Part shown: positions 42,679-47,010 of the stretch, piece by piece
How the letters are laid out: the number at the start of each line of letters is the position of its first letter
How positions within the stretch are numbered: position 1 is the stretch's first letter
Origin: Ahrensia sp. R2A130
GTDB taxonomy: Bacteria > Pseudomonadota > Alphaproteobacteria > Rhizobiales > Rhizobiaceae
Assembly (NCBI RefSeq): GCF_000179775.1
Contig: NZ_AEEB01000003.1
Span: 310,001-374,000, forward strand
DNA: 64,000 bases
Reading direction: 5' to 3'
Notes under the pieces: model-generated
Database searches by the model: none
Told to the model about the DNA's origin: nothing
The model's input: only the letters and a program-made list of their open reading frames with translations
Program-made: the position numbers and the translations under genes

Positions 42679-43179
42679 ATGACCTCCCCCACCCCTTTTT
42701 CTGCTCCGGCAGGTACCCGCATCGGCCATGTGCATCTGCGCGTGTCGGACCTCGAACGGTCCATCGCCTTTTACCGCGATGTCATCGGCCTGAAGCTGAT
42801 GCAGCGCTATGGCACGCAGGCGGCTTTTTTGGCGGCGGATGATTATCACCACCATATCGGCCTCAACACGTGGGAAAGCCGTGGCGGTGCGCCCGCGCCG
42901 AAGGGGCATCCCGGCCTGTTCCACACCGCCTTTCTCTACCCCGACCGCAAAAGCCTCGGCGCGGCAATCGCACAGGTTGCGAAATGCGGGGTCGGCCTTA
43001 CGGGGGCCGCCGACCACGGCGTGAGCGAGGCCGTCTATCTCGATGATCCCGATGGCAACGGCATCGAACTCTACACCGACCGCGCCATGGACGAGTGGCC
43101 GCGCGGTGCCGATGGCGAGTTGGAAATCGTCAACGCGCCGCTGGATGTGGACGCCCTCGTGGCGCTGGCGACCACCTGA
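42679..43179 (+). CDS. VOC family protein (glyoxalase/catechol dioxygenase type)
   Basis: 166 residues. Vicinal oxygen chelate fold: IGHVHLRVSDLERSIAFYRD at the N-terminus with the first metal His, HHHIGLNTWESRGG in the middle, and VYLDDPDGNGIELYTDRAMDEW with the metal Glu in the C-terminal half. The pattern resembles CatE-like single- or two-module extradiol dioxygenase relatives, but the substrate is not predictable. It is on the + strand between gatB and the accessory block, divergent from gatB. Confidence 0.9.
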   Translation: MTSPTPFSAPAGTRIGHVHLRVSDLERSIAFYRDVIGLKLMQRYGTQAAFLAADDYHHHIGLNTWESRGGAPAPKGHPGLFHTAFLYPDRKSLGAAIAQVAKCGVGLTGAADHGVSEAVYLDDPDGNGIELYTDRAMDEWPRGADGELEIVNAPLDVDALVALATT

Positions 43180-43686
43180 AAGCCGCGCTGGCGAAAAGCT
43201 GAGCCGAACACCCGAACGGCCCGCTGGCAGACGTGCGAAAGCGCCCGCCGGTGCGCTTGTTGGTGCGGCACCGCGGGGTTTGCATCAGTCCTGGCCCGAA
43301 ACCTGGAAAGTTCGGGAACCGGTGGGGCGTGATAGGCAACCCGTTAGCCGGTAGTTTCCGGCGAAAAGGGTTTCCCCTCACGCCCCACCCGGTTCTTGCT
43401 GCGGTGAGGAGTTTCACCTCACATTGCCCTGACACACCACTACATCCGTGTCCGTTACCAGACACGCCTGCACACCACGGCCGACGGAAGCGCGAACAAC
43501 CGCCCGGGAAGAGAGCGCGGGGCTCCAAAGCAAACGGCCGTTAAACCCGCCACCCCGGAAGAACCGACCCCACACGACGACACAAACGGAGCGCCCCGCC
43601 GGTTCCCTGTGTGGGGATGGGGGCAGTGTGGCATGGGTGGTTGGGGACAAATTTATTCAGCGATCCCTGCTCATCCCAAATTCCTT
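43180..43686. other. Non-coding, structured GC-rich spacer
   Basis: About 500 bases without a credible gene. It holds a long hairpin (43316-43395), a smaller inverted repeat GTGAGG/CCTCAC at about 43404-43422, and GC-rich text. Short open frames here are not supported by domains or codon use. This is the left flank of the repeat-GIY-YIG-repeat unit. Confidence 0.6.
43316..43395. repeat. Long imperfect hairpin, about 80 bases
   Basis: The outer arms are 43316-43332 and 43378-43395: inverted copies differing by one bulged G. Inside are AACCC (43338-43342) with GGGTT (43368-43372) and GCCGG (43347-43351) with CCGGC (43358-43362) around TAGTTT. The nested stems suggest a structured RNA or an extragenic palindromic element; it starts 137 bases past the VOC gene stop. 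No T-run follows. Confidence 0.6.
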
Positions 43687-43823
43687 TGTCATCCCCGCGC
43701 AGGCGGGGACCCACTCATCAACAAGCTCTCAACGCCGCAAAAGGACCGACGCGGCTCCACCCCACTCCCTGATCACCACATCATTCAGCAGAAAAGTGGG
43801 TCCCCGCCTGCGCGGGGATGACA
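43687..43823 (+). repeat. Palindromic dispersed repeat, copy A
   Basis: 137 bases bounded by perfect 29-bp inverted ends (43687-43715 and 43795-43823) beginning TGTCATCCCCGCGCAGGCGG. Each end also contains its own small palindrome (CCCCGC-GCAG-GCGGGG). Subterminal text at 43716-43729 (CATCAACAAGCTCT) and around 43775-43786 (CCACATCATT) recurs in copy B in the opposite orientation. No target-site duplication is obvious. Translated, it gives the familiar spurious peptides VIPAQAG and PRLRGDD seen in many proteobacterial genomes, so it is probably a member of a widely dispersed repeat family. Confidence 0.85.
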
Positions 43824-43844
43824 GTCGAGGGGGTAGCGAACTCC

Positions 43845-43878
43845 TAGCGTGACAATCCCAGCCCCACCCTTCACGCTA
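43845..43878. promoter_or_regulatory. Inverted repeat just upstream of the GIY-YIG gene
   Basis: TAGCGTGA (43845-43852) and TCACGCTA (43871-43878) are perfect 8-bp arms with an 18-base spacer, ending 4 bases before the start codon at 43883. The position would cover the ribosome binding site if it folds as RNA, or could be an operator. No clear Shine-Dalgarno is visible outside it. Confidence 0.5.
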
Positions 43879-43882
43879 CCTC

Positions 43883-44179
43883 ATGCCCCGTGACCACCAC
43901 TATTATGCCTATCTCCTCACCAGCCGTCCGCACGGCACACTTTACTGCGGCGTCACCAACGATCTCTACCGCCGCCTACTAGAGCACCGCGAGGGTAAAG
44001 CTGCCGGTTTCACAAACAAATACGACGTCCACCGTCTTGTTTGGTTCGAAGAACATGGCGACATCGAACTCGCCATCGCCCGTGAGAAGGCCATCAAGAA
44101 GTGGAACCGCGCATGGAAAATACGGCTGATCGAGGAAGGCAACCCGATGTGGGATGATCTCGGCATAGCGATCTTGTGA
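43883..44179 (+). CDS. GIY-YIG nuclease domain protein
   Basis: 98 residues, essentially only the GIY-YIG domain. YYAYLLTSRPHGTLYCGVT carries the GIY and YIG-equivalent strands; the catalytic Arg is in NDLYRRLLEHREG; the Glu-bearing helix and tail are AIAREKAIKKWNRAWKIRLI and NPMWDDLG, typical of the small stand-alone family. Such proteins are predicted metal-dependent endonucleases; no biological role is established for this subfamily as far as I know. It is bracketed by inverted copies of the same palindromic repeat about 60 bases away on each side, which suggests a functional link between nuclease and repeat. Confidence 0.92.
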   Translation: MPRDHHYYAYLLTSRPHGTLYCGVTNDLYRRLLEHREGKAAGFTNKYDVHRLVWFEEHGDIELAIAREKAIKKWNRAWKIRLIEEGNPMWDDLGIAIL

Positions 44180-44240
44180 GACGGTTCAGACCATAAATGC
44201 CAGCTAACACCCACCACCGTCCCCATTACCCCTCACCGCT

Positions 44241-44380
44241 TGTCATCCCCGCGAAGGCGGGGACCCACTTCTCCGCGAAATGATGTGGCGATGGTAAAGC
44301 GATGACTGACCAGCATCGCATTGCCGCCGCTGTACATAGAGCTTGTTGAAGAGTGGATCCCCGCCTGCGCGGGGATGACA
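44241..44380 (-). repeat. Palindromic dispersed repeat, copy B (inverted to copy A)
   Basis: 140 bases with 29-base inverted ends (44241-44269 and 44352-44380) that match at 27 of 29 positions. Read on the - strand, it aligns with copy A: the ends, the subterminal TCAACAAGCTCT and the CCACATCATT block agree, while the middle ~60 bases differ. Together with copy A it frames the GIY-YIG gene in head-to-head inverted orientation. Confidence 0.85.
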
Positions 44381-44432
44381 AAGCCAGACACTGTTACTGT
44401 GCGGTCGCGGGTCGAAAACTAGCAACTCCTAA

Positions 44433-45551
44433 TTAGCTCTGCGACTTCTCAAAGCCCATTTTCCAATCCAACAACAGGGTCTCTACATCTGGCGAATGCC
44501 CAGACTTCAGAACATACATCAAGGCAGTACGGACAACATTGACTACCGTGAGCGCTTGTTCCGCGGTCGGTTCCTGTCCTCTATGAAGAGTGTTTTGACG
44601 AATGTCGTAGACTTCTAACGTCTTAGCAAAGGCTCTATCTCGCTCATCGGCACGAAAGCTGGTCAGAACAGCGACGCATTTTGATATAGTTTTCGCCGTG
44701 TCACGCCGCTCGCTTCGGAAAATCCGTTCAAGAGCCATGAAAGAAAAGGTCACAGACTTTCGAAGATTATCCGCCACGCAACTTTCATCAAAGAGTGTCA
44801 TGCACTCACGCAGAAAAACCAAGTCCTCGAAAGTTTGAAGCAATCTAATAATTTCCGAGATGTGTCGCAAAATATCGCCATCAATTGTGATGACGCTGTC
44901 AGAAATTTGAAATCTTTGACGCAACCCGTCACGAACTTTGAAGATTGGTTGTTCTAAATTTAAAGACGGAGGATGGAAACTTGTGCTGGAAACATAAGGG
45001 ACATCCACTGCTGGTGCGGTGGCCAACCGAATAACGCATGCGATCAACCAAATTTGTTCCTCTACGCTTTCTTCAAACGCACCGGTCGCTGGATCAACAA
45101 CTAGTTGACAGTGCGCTGTGCCTTCAATGCCGTTGTCTAAAGCGACCCAAGGCGATGGTTTCGCCTTGCCTTTTTCCGCTGGAGAATAGGATGCCAACAC
45201 CGGCGCGAATGCGTTGAAGTAGATTTTTTCTAACCAGATACCTTGTTCTAGCTTCACGTTATCTTTGGATATCTTTAGTCCGCGTAGCATTCCAAACCGC
45301 ATCCCATGCTTGACGGCATGTTCCGCTTGCGATGCGTTGATGGAATTAGCGATGTCACCGATAACTCTATTGGCTACTAACGTAGCGACCGCTGTCCTAA
45401 ACGCCCAAAGAGAACAACCTAACGAGTCACTGAGTTGAGAACGAGCCCGCTTTGCTGTTTCTGCGTGGTTAGACGCTGCGATCTCAAGTCGGGTCAACTC
45501 AAAATCGGTCAATCTAGAGGTCGGTTTTGTTGCTTTGAACTTGCCTCTCAT
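44433..45551 (-). CDS. Unknown protein with C-terminal HEPN-type RxxxxH motif (Apea-like)
   Basis: 372 residues from the ATG at 45551; the frame is open to 45629, but the extra part overlaps gatA in another frame. No signal or membrane helix. The N-terminal ~260 residues are unrecognised. The C-terminal region has FMALERIF (~residue 271), then LEVYDIRQNTLHRG (~313-326), whose R318-QNTL-H323 fits the catalytic RxxxxH motif of HEPN RNases, in the LALEALL...YDIRSxxxHG arrangement of Apea-like HEPN proteins. The gene is clearly lower in GC than its neighbours (29 of 60 bases in 44701-44760 against 46 of 60 in 46441-46500), suggesting transfer. A defence or toxin role is inference only. Confidence 0.7.
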   Translation of the reverse strand: MRGKFKATKPTSRLTDFELTRLEIAASNHAETAKRARSQLSDSLGCSLWAFRTAVATLVANRVIGDIANSINASQAEHAVKHGMRFGMLRGLKISKDNVKLEQGIWLEKIYFNAFAPVLASYSPAEKGKAKPSPWVALDNGIEGTAHCQLVVDPATGAFEESVEEQIWLIACVIRLATAPAVDVPYVSSTSFHPPSLNLEQPIFKVRDGLRQRFQISDSVITIDGDILRHISEIIRLLQTFEDLVFLRECMTLFDESCVADNLRKSVTFSFMALERIFRSERRDTAKTISKCVAVLTSFRADERDRAFAKTLEVYDIRQNTLHRGQEPTAEQALTVVNVVRTALMYVLKSGHSPDVETLLLDWKMGFEKSQS

Positions 45552-45576
45552 TGACCAAAGCGTTGGCGTCCAAGCT

Positions 45577-47010
45577 TCACAAAACTGCCCCCACCCGGAA
45601 CAAATCCTCTTCCCCGAATGGCTTCCCAATCAGTTGCAACCCTAGCGGCAATCCCTTCGCGTCCACGCCTGCTGGCACGGCGATGCCCGGCAGTCCCGCC
45701 ATGTTCACCGTTACCGTGAACACGTCATTCAAATACATCGCGACGGGGTCTTCCTGTTTGCTCACGTCGCCGATGGGGAATGCGGCGCTGGGGGTGGCGG
45801 GGGTGAGGATGCAGTCGATGCCATCCGCGTAGGCGCGTTCGAAATCCTGCTTGATGAGCGTGCGAACCTTTTGGGCGCGGGTGTAGTAGGCGTCGTAGAA
45901 GCCGGCCGACAGCACATAGGTGCCGATCATGATGCGGCGCTGCACCTCGTCGCCGAAGCCTGCGGCGCGGGTGCGCTCGTACATATCGGTGATGTTCTCG
46001 CCATCCACCCGCAGCCCGTAGCGCACACCATCATAGCGGGCGAGGTTCGACGAGGCTTCCGCAGGGGCCACGATGTAATAGGCGGGCAGCGCGTATTTGG
46101 TGTGGGGCAGCGAGATATCGACGATCTCCGCGCCCGCATCACGGAGCCGCTCGGCGCCCTCTTTCCAAAGCGCATCGATCTCATCGGACATGCCGTCCAT
46201 TCGGTATTCGCGCGGAATGCCGATCTTCATGCCCTTGATGGACTTGCCCACGGCGGCCTCGTAGTCCGGCACCGGCATGTCGACGCAGGTGGTGTCCTTA
46301 GCGTCGCTGCTCGCCATGCTCCGCAGCATGATCGCGGCATCGCGCACGGTGCGGGTGATGGGGCCAGCCTGATCGAGCGACGAGGCGAACGCCACCATGC
46401 CCCAGCGCGAACAGCGACCATAGGTGGGCTTGATGCCCACGGTGCCGGTGAGTGCCGCTGGCTGGCGGATCGAGCCGCCGGTGTCCGACGCGGTAGCCGC
46501 CGCGCACATGTTCGCCGCAACCGCTGCTGCGCTGCCACCCGACGAGCCGCCGGGGACGAGGTCTTCGGTTTCGCTTACAGGGTTCACTACCGCGCCGTAA
46601 TAGGACGTCTCGTTGGACGACCCCATGGCGAACTCGTCCATGTTCAGCTTGCCCAGCATCACCGCGCCATCATCCCACAGGTTCTGCGTGACGGTGGATT
46701 CGTAGGGCGGCTTGAAGCCATCGAGAATGTGGGAACACGCTTGGGTGTGGACGCCCTTGGTGGCGTAGAGATCCTTGATGCCCAGCGGCACACCTTCCAA
46801 CGGGCGCGCGGTGCCAGCGGCAATCGCCTTGTCGGAAGCACCCGCCATCTCGCGGGCCTGCTCCGCCGTGGTGACGATGTATGCGTTAAGGCGCTCGTTC
46901 TTGGCCTCGATCGCGCCGAGGTAAGCGTCCGTCACCTCACGGGCGGAGAAGGATTTGGCGGCATAGCCATCGCGCAGGTCTGCGATGGTGAGGGCGGTGA
47001 GATCGGTCAT
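45577..47010 (-). CDS. gatA: Asp-tRNA(Asn)/Glu-tRNA(Gln) amidotransferase subunit A, C-terminal tail missing
   Basis: Amidase-signature subunit that releases ammonia from glutamine for transamidation. It has 477 residues. The catalytic Lys is in [14 protein letters not shown]; the Gly/Ser-rich signature is [20 protein letters not shown] with cis-Ser and the nucleophile in [12 protein letters not shown]. The protein stops at LFRVGAVL, where the family normally continues ~15 residues (VLE, then TP and WW). In the next frame the following codons read EAWTPTLWS, so either a small frameshift or an insertion at this edge removed the tail. The core is intact and probably functional. gatC lies 54 bases upstream. 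Confidence 0.93.

Follow-up and report, generated by a model that had tools for sequence, protein, structure and literature searches.

A GIY-YIG nuclease subfamily as the likely partner of CGTC-tagged REP palindromes

Introduction

Why does a gene for a 98-residue GIY-YIG nuclease lie between two inverted copies of the same palindromic repeat? The arrangement is found in Ahrensia sp. R2A130, within the 64-kb stretch of DNA that we analysed (the window). A first, sequence-only reading of the window had likened it to REP sequences and their RAYT nucleases, and had noted that no mobilising enzyme was known to be assigned to repeats of this type, which are very common in proteobacteria and recognisable by the spurious peptides VIPAQAG / PRLRGDD.

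According to Di Nocera et al. 2013 (PMC3733652), CGTC-tagged REPs are characterized by the tag, a CCA tail, a short loop and a stem whose first bases are AT. In that paper the class is found in five phyla, its mode of spread is left open, and Neisseria dRS3 and Rickettsia RPE-4/RPE-6 are equated with it (dRS3 with CGTC-1). The paper describes the class as having no dedicated transposase, and does not contain the term GIY-YIG.

Results

A GIY-YIG gene bracketed by two REP dimers

The features of the locus are as follows (window coordinates).

43687..44380, no strand: proposed composite unit, REP dimer A - GIY-YIG gene - REP dimer B; 694 bp, with the outer tags TGTCAT...ATGACA pointing outward
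43687..43823, plus strand: REP dimer A; 137 bp, from repeat pairing and DNA folding
43687..43713, plus strand: REP A1; tag TGTC, stem, 4-base loop and CCA tail
43797..43823, minus strand: REP A2, the inverted partner of A1; from an end-pattern match
43883..44179, plus strand: GIY-YIG nuclease gene, 98 aa, stop included; from Pfam PF01541, alignment and structure model
44241..44380, minus strand: REP dimer B; 140 bp, its orientation opposite to that of A judged from spacer motifs
44241..44267, plus strand: REP B1; from an end-pattern match
44354..44380, minus strand: REP B2; from an end-pattern match

The two inverted palindromic copies around a GIY-YIG gene were correctly described in the earlier reading, both in coordinates and in features. 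Each copy is itself a REP dimer, REP(+)-spacer-REP(-), so that the bracket reads dimer-gene-dimer with the TGTCAT tags outward. The 29-base ends are 100% complementary within dimer A and 93% complementary within dimer B. As had been claimed, the two copies share these ends (94-97% identity between A and B) and the inner blocks; the inverted pairs reach 46 and 52 bp, taking in the TCAACAAGCTCT and CCACATCATT blocks. In their centres the dimers are unlike each other. The gene, placed about 60 bases from each copy, is 59 bp from dimer A and 61 bp from dimer B. A 26-base pattern made for the repeat ends has 4 matches in the 64-kb window and 0 in 100 shuffles, and DNA folding compared with shuffled sequence gave z values of -9.7 for dimer A and -8.9 for dimer B.

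The window repeats have a CGTC/TGTC tag, an AT-first stem of 8-9 bp, a loop of 4-5 bases and a CCA tail, and they are present in the genome in many copies, mainly as dimers with the tags outside (57 ends, 26 dimers). These are the marks of CGTC-tagged REPs, except that at three of the window's four ends a C instead of a T stands opposite the first A of the stem. The difference from the 2013 description, which gives the class no dedicated transposase, is that here a GIY-YIG gene, coding for a nuclease and not necessarily for a transposase, lies between the repeats. The REPs nearest to the window gene have their tags inward, toward the gene, which is the rarer layout (3 of the 25 positions considered below).

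Together with a VOC-like gene and another ORF, the REP-gene unit separates gatA and gatB (window 42679-45629). In genus relatives gatA and gatB are spaced by ~100 bp (L185, L188, L189) or by ~0.9 kb (L190, L192). None of the 14 genus relatives provided a usable precise empty site; with identities of 66-78% at gatA they are too distant for a junction to be read at the window site.

The protein encoded in the window is a member of the GIY-YIG superfamily, scoring 59.7 bits against Pfam PF01541 (cut-off 22.6) over residues 7-80. In an alignment of 43 sequences, 12 columns are invariant, including Y21, G23, R31, E68 and N87, and Y10 and H35 are nearly invariant; we take Y10, Y21, R31, E68 and N87 to correspond to the catalytic residues of GIY-YIG enzymes. 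In fold, the structure model (pLDDT 91.3) is closest to UPF0213 protein BH0048 and to Slx1, a nuclease of branched DNA. The small UPF0213 GIY-YIG proteins 1zg2 and 1ywl, labelled hypothetical in their records, are the best matches by sequence, and 1zg2 is also a fold match. Relatives in phages are partial only, with 38-41% identity.

REPs across the Ahrensia sp. R2A130 genome

The Ahrensia assembly (3.73 Mb, 59 contigs, 94.9% complete) contains 57 repeat ends, 29 forward and 28 reverse, at up to 3 mismatches; the reversed control pattern had 0 matches. Pairing by script, allowing up to 5 mismatches, resolved 26 dimers, 4 unpaired ends and 3 symmetric monomers. For 29 elements placed uniformly in 3.73 Mb, an assumption that is not quite true, two elements within 100 bp of one gene have a probability of ~1e-6. 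PF01541 has two matches in this genome, the window gene and a domain in a 662-residue frame taken for UvrC, and none of the 26 dimers contains a nuclease remnant with E below 0.5.

The elements look clustered rather than uniformly spread: 4 of the 26 dimers and one unpaired end lie inside 14 kb (G000:C43:92740-106922, locus L070), and further close pairs occur on contigs C44, C56 and C57. By eye, the 15 bp beyond the dimer ends are also alike (...CCACC.C before TGTC, GGAGTG-like after GACA), which gives the impression of an inverted repeat running past the tag.

REPs beside homologues of the gene

Beyond this genome we used the best 80 of 108 relatives from a species-genome collection, with flanks of up to 10 kb. 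The records cover Alpha-, Beta- and Gammaproteobacteria, Chloroflexi, Patescibacteria, Bacteroidota-type and other bacteria, and many are metagenome bins. The repeat-end pattern was matched within 1 kb of the gene in 44 of the 80 loci, with 128 matches in 156 kb of near DNA compared with 61 in 1173 kb of far DNA. A sequence-blind test scored the best inverted repeat formed by the 250 bp on either side of the gene, shifted windows in the same loci serving as controls. Scores of at least 20 were obtained for 59 of 110 gene flanks (the other 51 were below 20) versus 5 of 1751 control windows.

The cores of the flanking palindromes vary by clade, the tag and tail being constant. The narrow pattern of the window repeats was consequently dropped as a sole test: it had at least one match in 23 of the 199 family genomes, where the gene is found in 99 at E<=1e-3, and was found at none of 29 other family loci. 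It reached at least 5 matches in seven genomes (G000, G004, G034, G074, G132, G139 and G197), those in G074 looking different. Since the repeat cores are clade-specific, we used instead a covariance model of 33 REPs (~41 bits). The model was built almost wholly from REPs adjoining these genes, but near, far and control DNA were all searched with it in the same way; because the finder that selected these REPs required pairing, base-pair counts in the model are not independent evidence. Of its matches, 162 lie no farther than 400 bp from the gene (63 kb in all) and 55 in the other 1266 kb, a 59-fold enrichment. A strict hairpin finder gave 157 matches in 87 kb near and 43 in 1329 kb far in 110 loci, 69 of which had at least one near match.

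Where the homologue is at least 50% identical to the window protein, a REP lies within 400 bp in 58 of 69 loci, and on both sides in 47. Below 50% identity the figure is 1 of 11 loci (L154). A model REP is missing inside 400 bp in 11 of the 69 close homologue loci; the inverted-repeat test found strong flanking palindromes at the model-negative loci L097, L124, L143 and L149, and no strong ones at L092, L114, L140 and L145. Among 29 other loci from the family of the window, a model REP lies within 400 bp in 28; in the exception (L039) the nearest is 427 bp away. The gene is thus usually beside a repeat; a gene usually far from any repeat would have refuted the sequence-only reading. In another GIY-YIG subfamily of the same bacterial family, only 1 of 16 loci (L172) has a model REP within 400 bp and 2 have any REP; the strict finder detected no REP in these 16 loci (3.2-5 kb each).

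Grouped by shared flanks, the 80 loci represent 53 positions, or perhaps 52 because one and the same long gene flanks two of the groups on one side, and a near REP is present at 34. For the orientation of the REPs we took one member (the first) of each position group, the chance of a tag-out pair being 1/4. At the 25 two-sided positions the nearest pair is tag-out in 15, tag-in in 3 and oriented the same way in 7 (P 2e-4); for the outermost pair the counts are 18, 1 and 6 (P 1e-6).

These observations bear on the view that REPs and a small gene gather by coincidence in permissive intergenic DNA, or that the REPs are the terminators of the gene. In the 2013 survey REPs sit mostly downstream of coding regions (PMC3733652), as this view would have it. 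It does not explain why REPs occur on two sides in a preferred orientation and are found at 1 of 16 loci of the control subfamily, nor does it agree with the co-variation of repeat and protein and the coincidence of unit edges with tags described below. We consider it very improbable.

In two lineages the gene adjoins the same long, highly conserved gene (L083-L085 and L091, L094, L101-L104, L116, L123, L130), which encodes 1241 aa in L084 and by eye resembles a B12-dependent ribonucleotide reductase. An rRNA operon beside the gene in L084 and L091 was ruled out, there being no Rfam match. In Neisseria gonorrhoeae (L260; NZ_CP119140.1, 1880787-1884056) a homologous gene lies inside a dense REP array, with 16 model matches within 1 kb.

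REP number and REP sequence vary with the gene

In 199 genomes of one family we searched for the protein and for the REP model. The REP counts are those among the matches listed (up to ~37 per genome), after filtering. The gene is present at E<=1e-10 in 89 of the 199 genomes, which have a median of 22 REPs among the matches listed, compared with 2 in the 110 gene-negative genomes (P 1e-14). At least 10 REPs are found in 65 of the 89 gene-positive and in 28 of the 110 gene-negative genomes. A comparison within genera, chosen to lessen the effect of shared ancestry, gave the same picture: among 38 genera with both states, REPs are more numerous with the gene in 30, fewer in 7 and equal in 1 (sign test 1e-4). 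Equal numbers of repeats with and without the gene, which the sequence-only reading had named as fatal to its proposal, were therefore not observed.

Seventeen of the 110 gene-negative genomes have at least 20 REPs, which counts against a partnership. When 13 of these were rechecked with PF01541, 11 had a single match, in a frame of UvrC size (at least 681 residues), and the other two had small extra frames, of 103 residues in G041 and 96 residues in G144. Two gene-positive genomes scored zero REPs; one of them (G038) has REPs beside the gene, and in the other (G010) the gene contains a stop.

Might a RAYT or some other known transposase mobilise the REPs, with the GIY-YIG gene as cargo? RAYTs have been hypothesised as the mobilisers of GTAG REPs, and for CGTC REPs the same survey found no tyrosine transposase flanked by them and, for other transposases, no more than a few fortuitous associations (PMC3733652). 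The RAYT-type transposase domain Y1_Tnp (PF01797), the one transposase family covered in our search, was detected in 0 of 20 REP-bearing genomes, while the same search was positive in 5 of 14 controls. Both results argue against this explanation, which we regard as improbable.

The sequence of the REPs also follows that of the protein. For 36 genes of one family with strict REPs within 250 bp, protein and REP distances are correlated (Mantel r 0.45, 0 of 2000 permutations), and they remain so without same-genome pairs (0.44, 0 of 2000 permutations); the median REP edit distance climbs from 0 to 7 with protein distance. Of 12 within-genome pairs, the three with 90-97% protein identity (G034, G187, G173) have a REP distance of 0, and the remaining nine (45-72% identity) differ by 2 to 10 REP edits, the least being 2 edits at 55% in G109. 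In G034, two proteins with 90% identity have one REP type and a third (45-47%) has another.

Duplicated units, alternative alleles and a deleted derivative

Similar units are present at different sites within four genomes. In G173 the copies are 87% identical over 403 bp, and the similarity begins and ends at the REP tags. It is likewise bounded by REP tags in G187, where dimer-gene-dimer occurs at two sites in a window-like layout. In G155 the tag marks the left edge in three copies and the right edge in two. The G147 copies are 20 kb apart and have ~600 bp in common, with unclear edges.

Another possibility is that the protein is a domesticated genome-maintenance nuclease which trims or resolves palindromes, the adjoining REPs being a control element. 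Its closest folds, BH0048 and Slx1, would suit such a role, as would strong purifying selection, dN/dS being 0 to 0.13 in six copy pairs, four of them within a genome. The patchy presence of the gene, found at E<=1e-10 in 89 of the 199 family genomes, would not. Moreover, several copies per genome at different sites, together with decayed copies (a frameshift in Sphingobium TYG73, stops in some family-genome genes), give it the look of a mobile gene. We think domestication unlikely to be the explanation.

At three unrelated sites one relative has a single palindrome where another has REP-gene-REP. At the first, G211 has the single palindrome and G173 the unit, in flanks that are ~90% identical; G212 and G099 have other DNA there, neither unit nor palindrome. 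At the second, on Sphingobium plasmids, the unit lies between fnrL and a response regulator in 4 of the eight aligned, TYG64 and TYG74 have a single palindrome, and TYG72 and TYG65 have neither form. A tree of the Sphingobium flanks sets the gene-bearing apart from the gene-free plasmids; as its root is not fixed, insertion into a palindrome and collapse to one are indistinguishable. At the third, the place of the S. meliloti units is taken in Sinorhizobium sp. K101 by a nearly symmetric palindrome and a further, partial REP. No target-site duplication was seen at the duplicated units or at the alternative-allele sites.

In S. meliloti, a unit of ~160 bp adjoins a full copy and matches its first 45 bp (93%) and its last 120 bp (95%). 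The interior 210 bp, including the 5' part of the gene, is gone, and the remnant lies between two repeats. This short unit is a non-autonomous derivative, formed by internal deletion.

The main rival explanation has the nuclease gene homing parasitically into REP sites, with the REPs spreading by other means. The REP-rich genomes that lack the gene are in its favor, and so are the single palindromes that match gene sites in three lineages, as expected of homing targets. It is harder to reconcile with the higher REP number where the gene is present, within genera too, with a gene-less dimer derived from a gene unit in S. meliloti, and with the lack of a RAYT-type transposase in any of the 20 REP-bearing genomes searched. 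Homing alone is possible, though we doubt it.

Discussion

The association, the subfamily specificity, the co-variation of repeat and protein, the duplication of units, the alternative alleles and the deleted derivative, all drawn from sequence comparison, are best explained if CGTC-tagged REP palindromes have their dedicated nuclease in this GIY-YIG subfamily, which we consider probable. That the subfamily and the CGTC REPs form a dedicated partnership is very likely indeed, and we hold with good confidence that the gene and its REPs move as one unit. The subfamily is likely to be the missing partner of widespread palindromic repeats reported to have none.

In the mechanism that we propose, the basic unit would be REP(+)-gene-REP(-), ~400 bp long with the tags outward, the window containing a composite form, dimer-gene-dimer. 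We infer that the nuclease would recognise the palindrome, as a hairpin or a cruciform, and cut it at other REP sites. The GIY-YIG cut would be a hydrolysed break, with no joining of DNA. Since GIY-YIG enzymes hydrolyse DNA and none is known to join it, movement is most simply explained by host repair that uses another unit: host recombination would fill the break with a copy of the REP-bounded unit, in a homing-like cycle. Internal deletion could then give rise to gene-less REP dimers that spread in trans, and a unit whose two REPs recombine could collapse to a single palindrome, possibly a target again. With REPs supplying both the cut site and the homology, such a cycle would account for unit edges at REPs, single-palindrome alleles, co-variation and the correlation with copy number. 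We give REP cutting followed by host repair an even chance of being the route actually taken.

The closest known system is that of RAYTs, or REPtrons. The analogy drawn in the sequence-only reading holds for the anatomy, a nuclease gene between REPs with gene-less REP dimers dispersed in the genome, and fails for the enzyme, which has an unrelated fold; no Y1 domain was found in the 20 genomes searched. RAYTs are tyrosine HUH (Y1) transposases associated with GTAG REPs, whereas here the enzyme is GIY-YIG, the tag is another and the gene is ~300 bp long. The GIY-YIG-REP unit resembles a REPtron in kind, with a different enzyme superfamily and the other REP superfamily.

I-TevI and its relatives are GIY-YIG homing endonucleases. 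The present proteins have in common with them the domain with conserved Tyr, Arg, Glu and Asn, and presence or absence at orthologous sites; they differ in that no intron or intein was seen at these loci, the bounds are hairpin repeats and the window protein has only 98 aa. Like insertion sequences, the units have terminal inverted repeats; the alternative alleles at their sites hold one palindrome or other DNA. We found no paper joining GIY-YIG with REPs in the open-licence literature, preprints excepted and in part among top-ranked results only.

A broader proposal, for which we see equal grounds for belief and doubt, is that CGTC REPs and the GIY-YIG subfamily constitute a minimal autonomous mobile element, a ~95-residue nuclease and two hairpins in ~400 bp, homing from palindrome to palindrome. 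It would be the source of VIPAQAG-type repeats in many phyla and, given their published assignment to the class, of dRS3 and RPE-4/RPE-6 as well, and a second REP-nuclease partnership, evolved independently of that of the RAYTs. If the partnership holds, another enzyme superfamily would join the nucleases that partner dispersed palindromes, bacteria would have a very small self-contained mobile unit, and some of the small proteins annotated as 'GIY-YIG nuclease family proteins' would be accounted for. With a gene subfamily named, the spread of CGTC REPs can be tested at the bench.

Two variations in REP structure were observed beside these genes. In several genomes from the family of the window (loci L046, L048, L050, L053, L056, L059 and L062), the gene is flanked by REP variants with a long loop, 48-56 nt in length. 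In the left flank of L117, and before the single palindrome of G211 (L242), imperfect tandem copies of the tag region adjoin the REP; they are ~15-22 bp long and CTCCGTCATCCC-like, as if the tag had been copied repeatedly.
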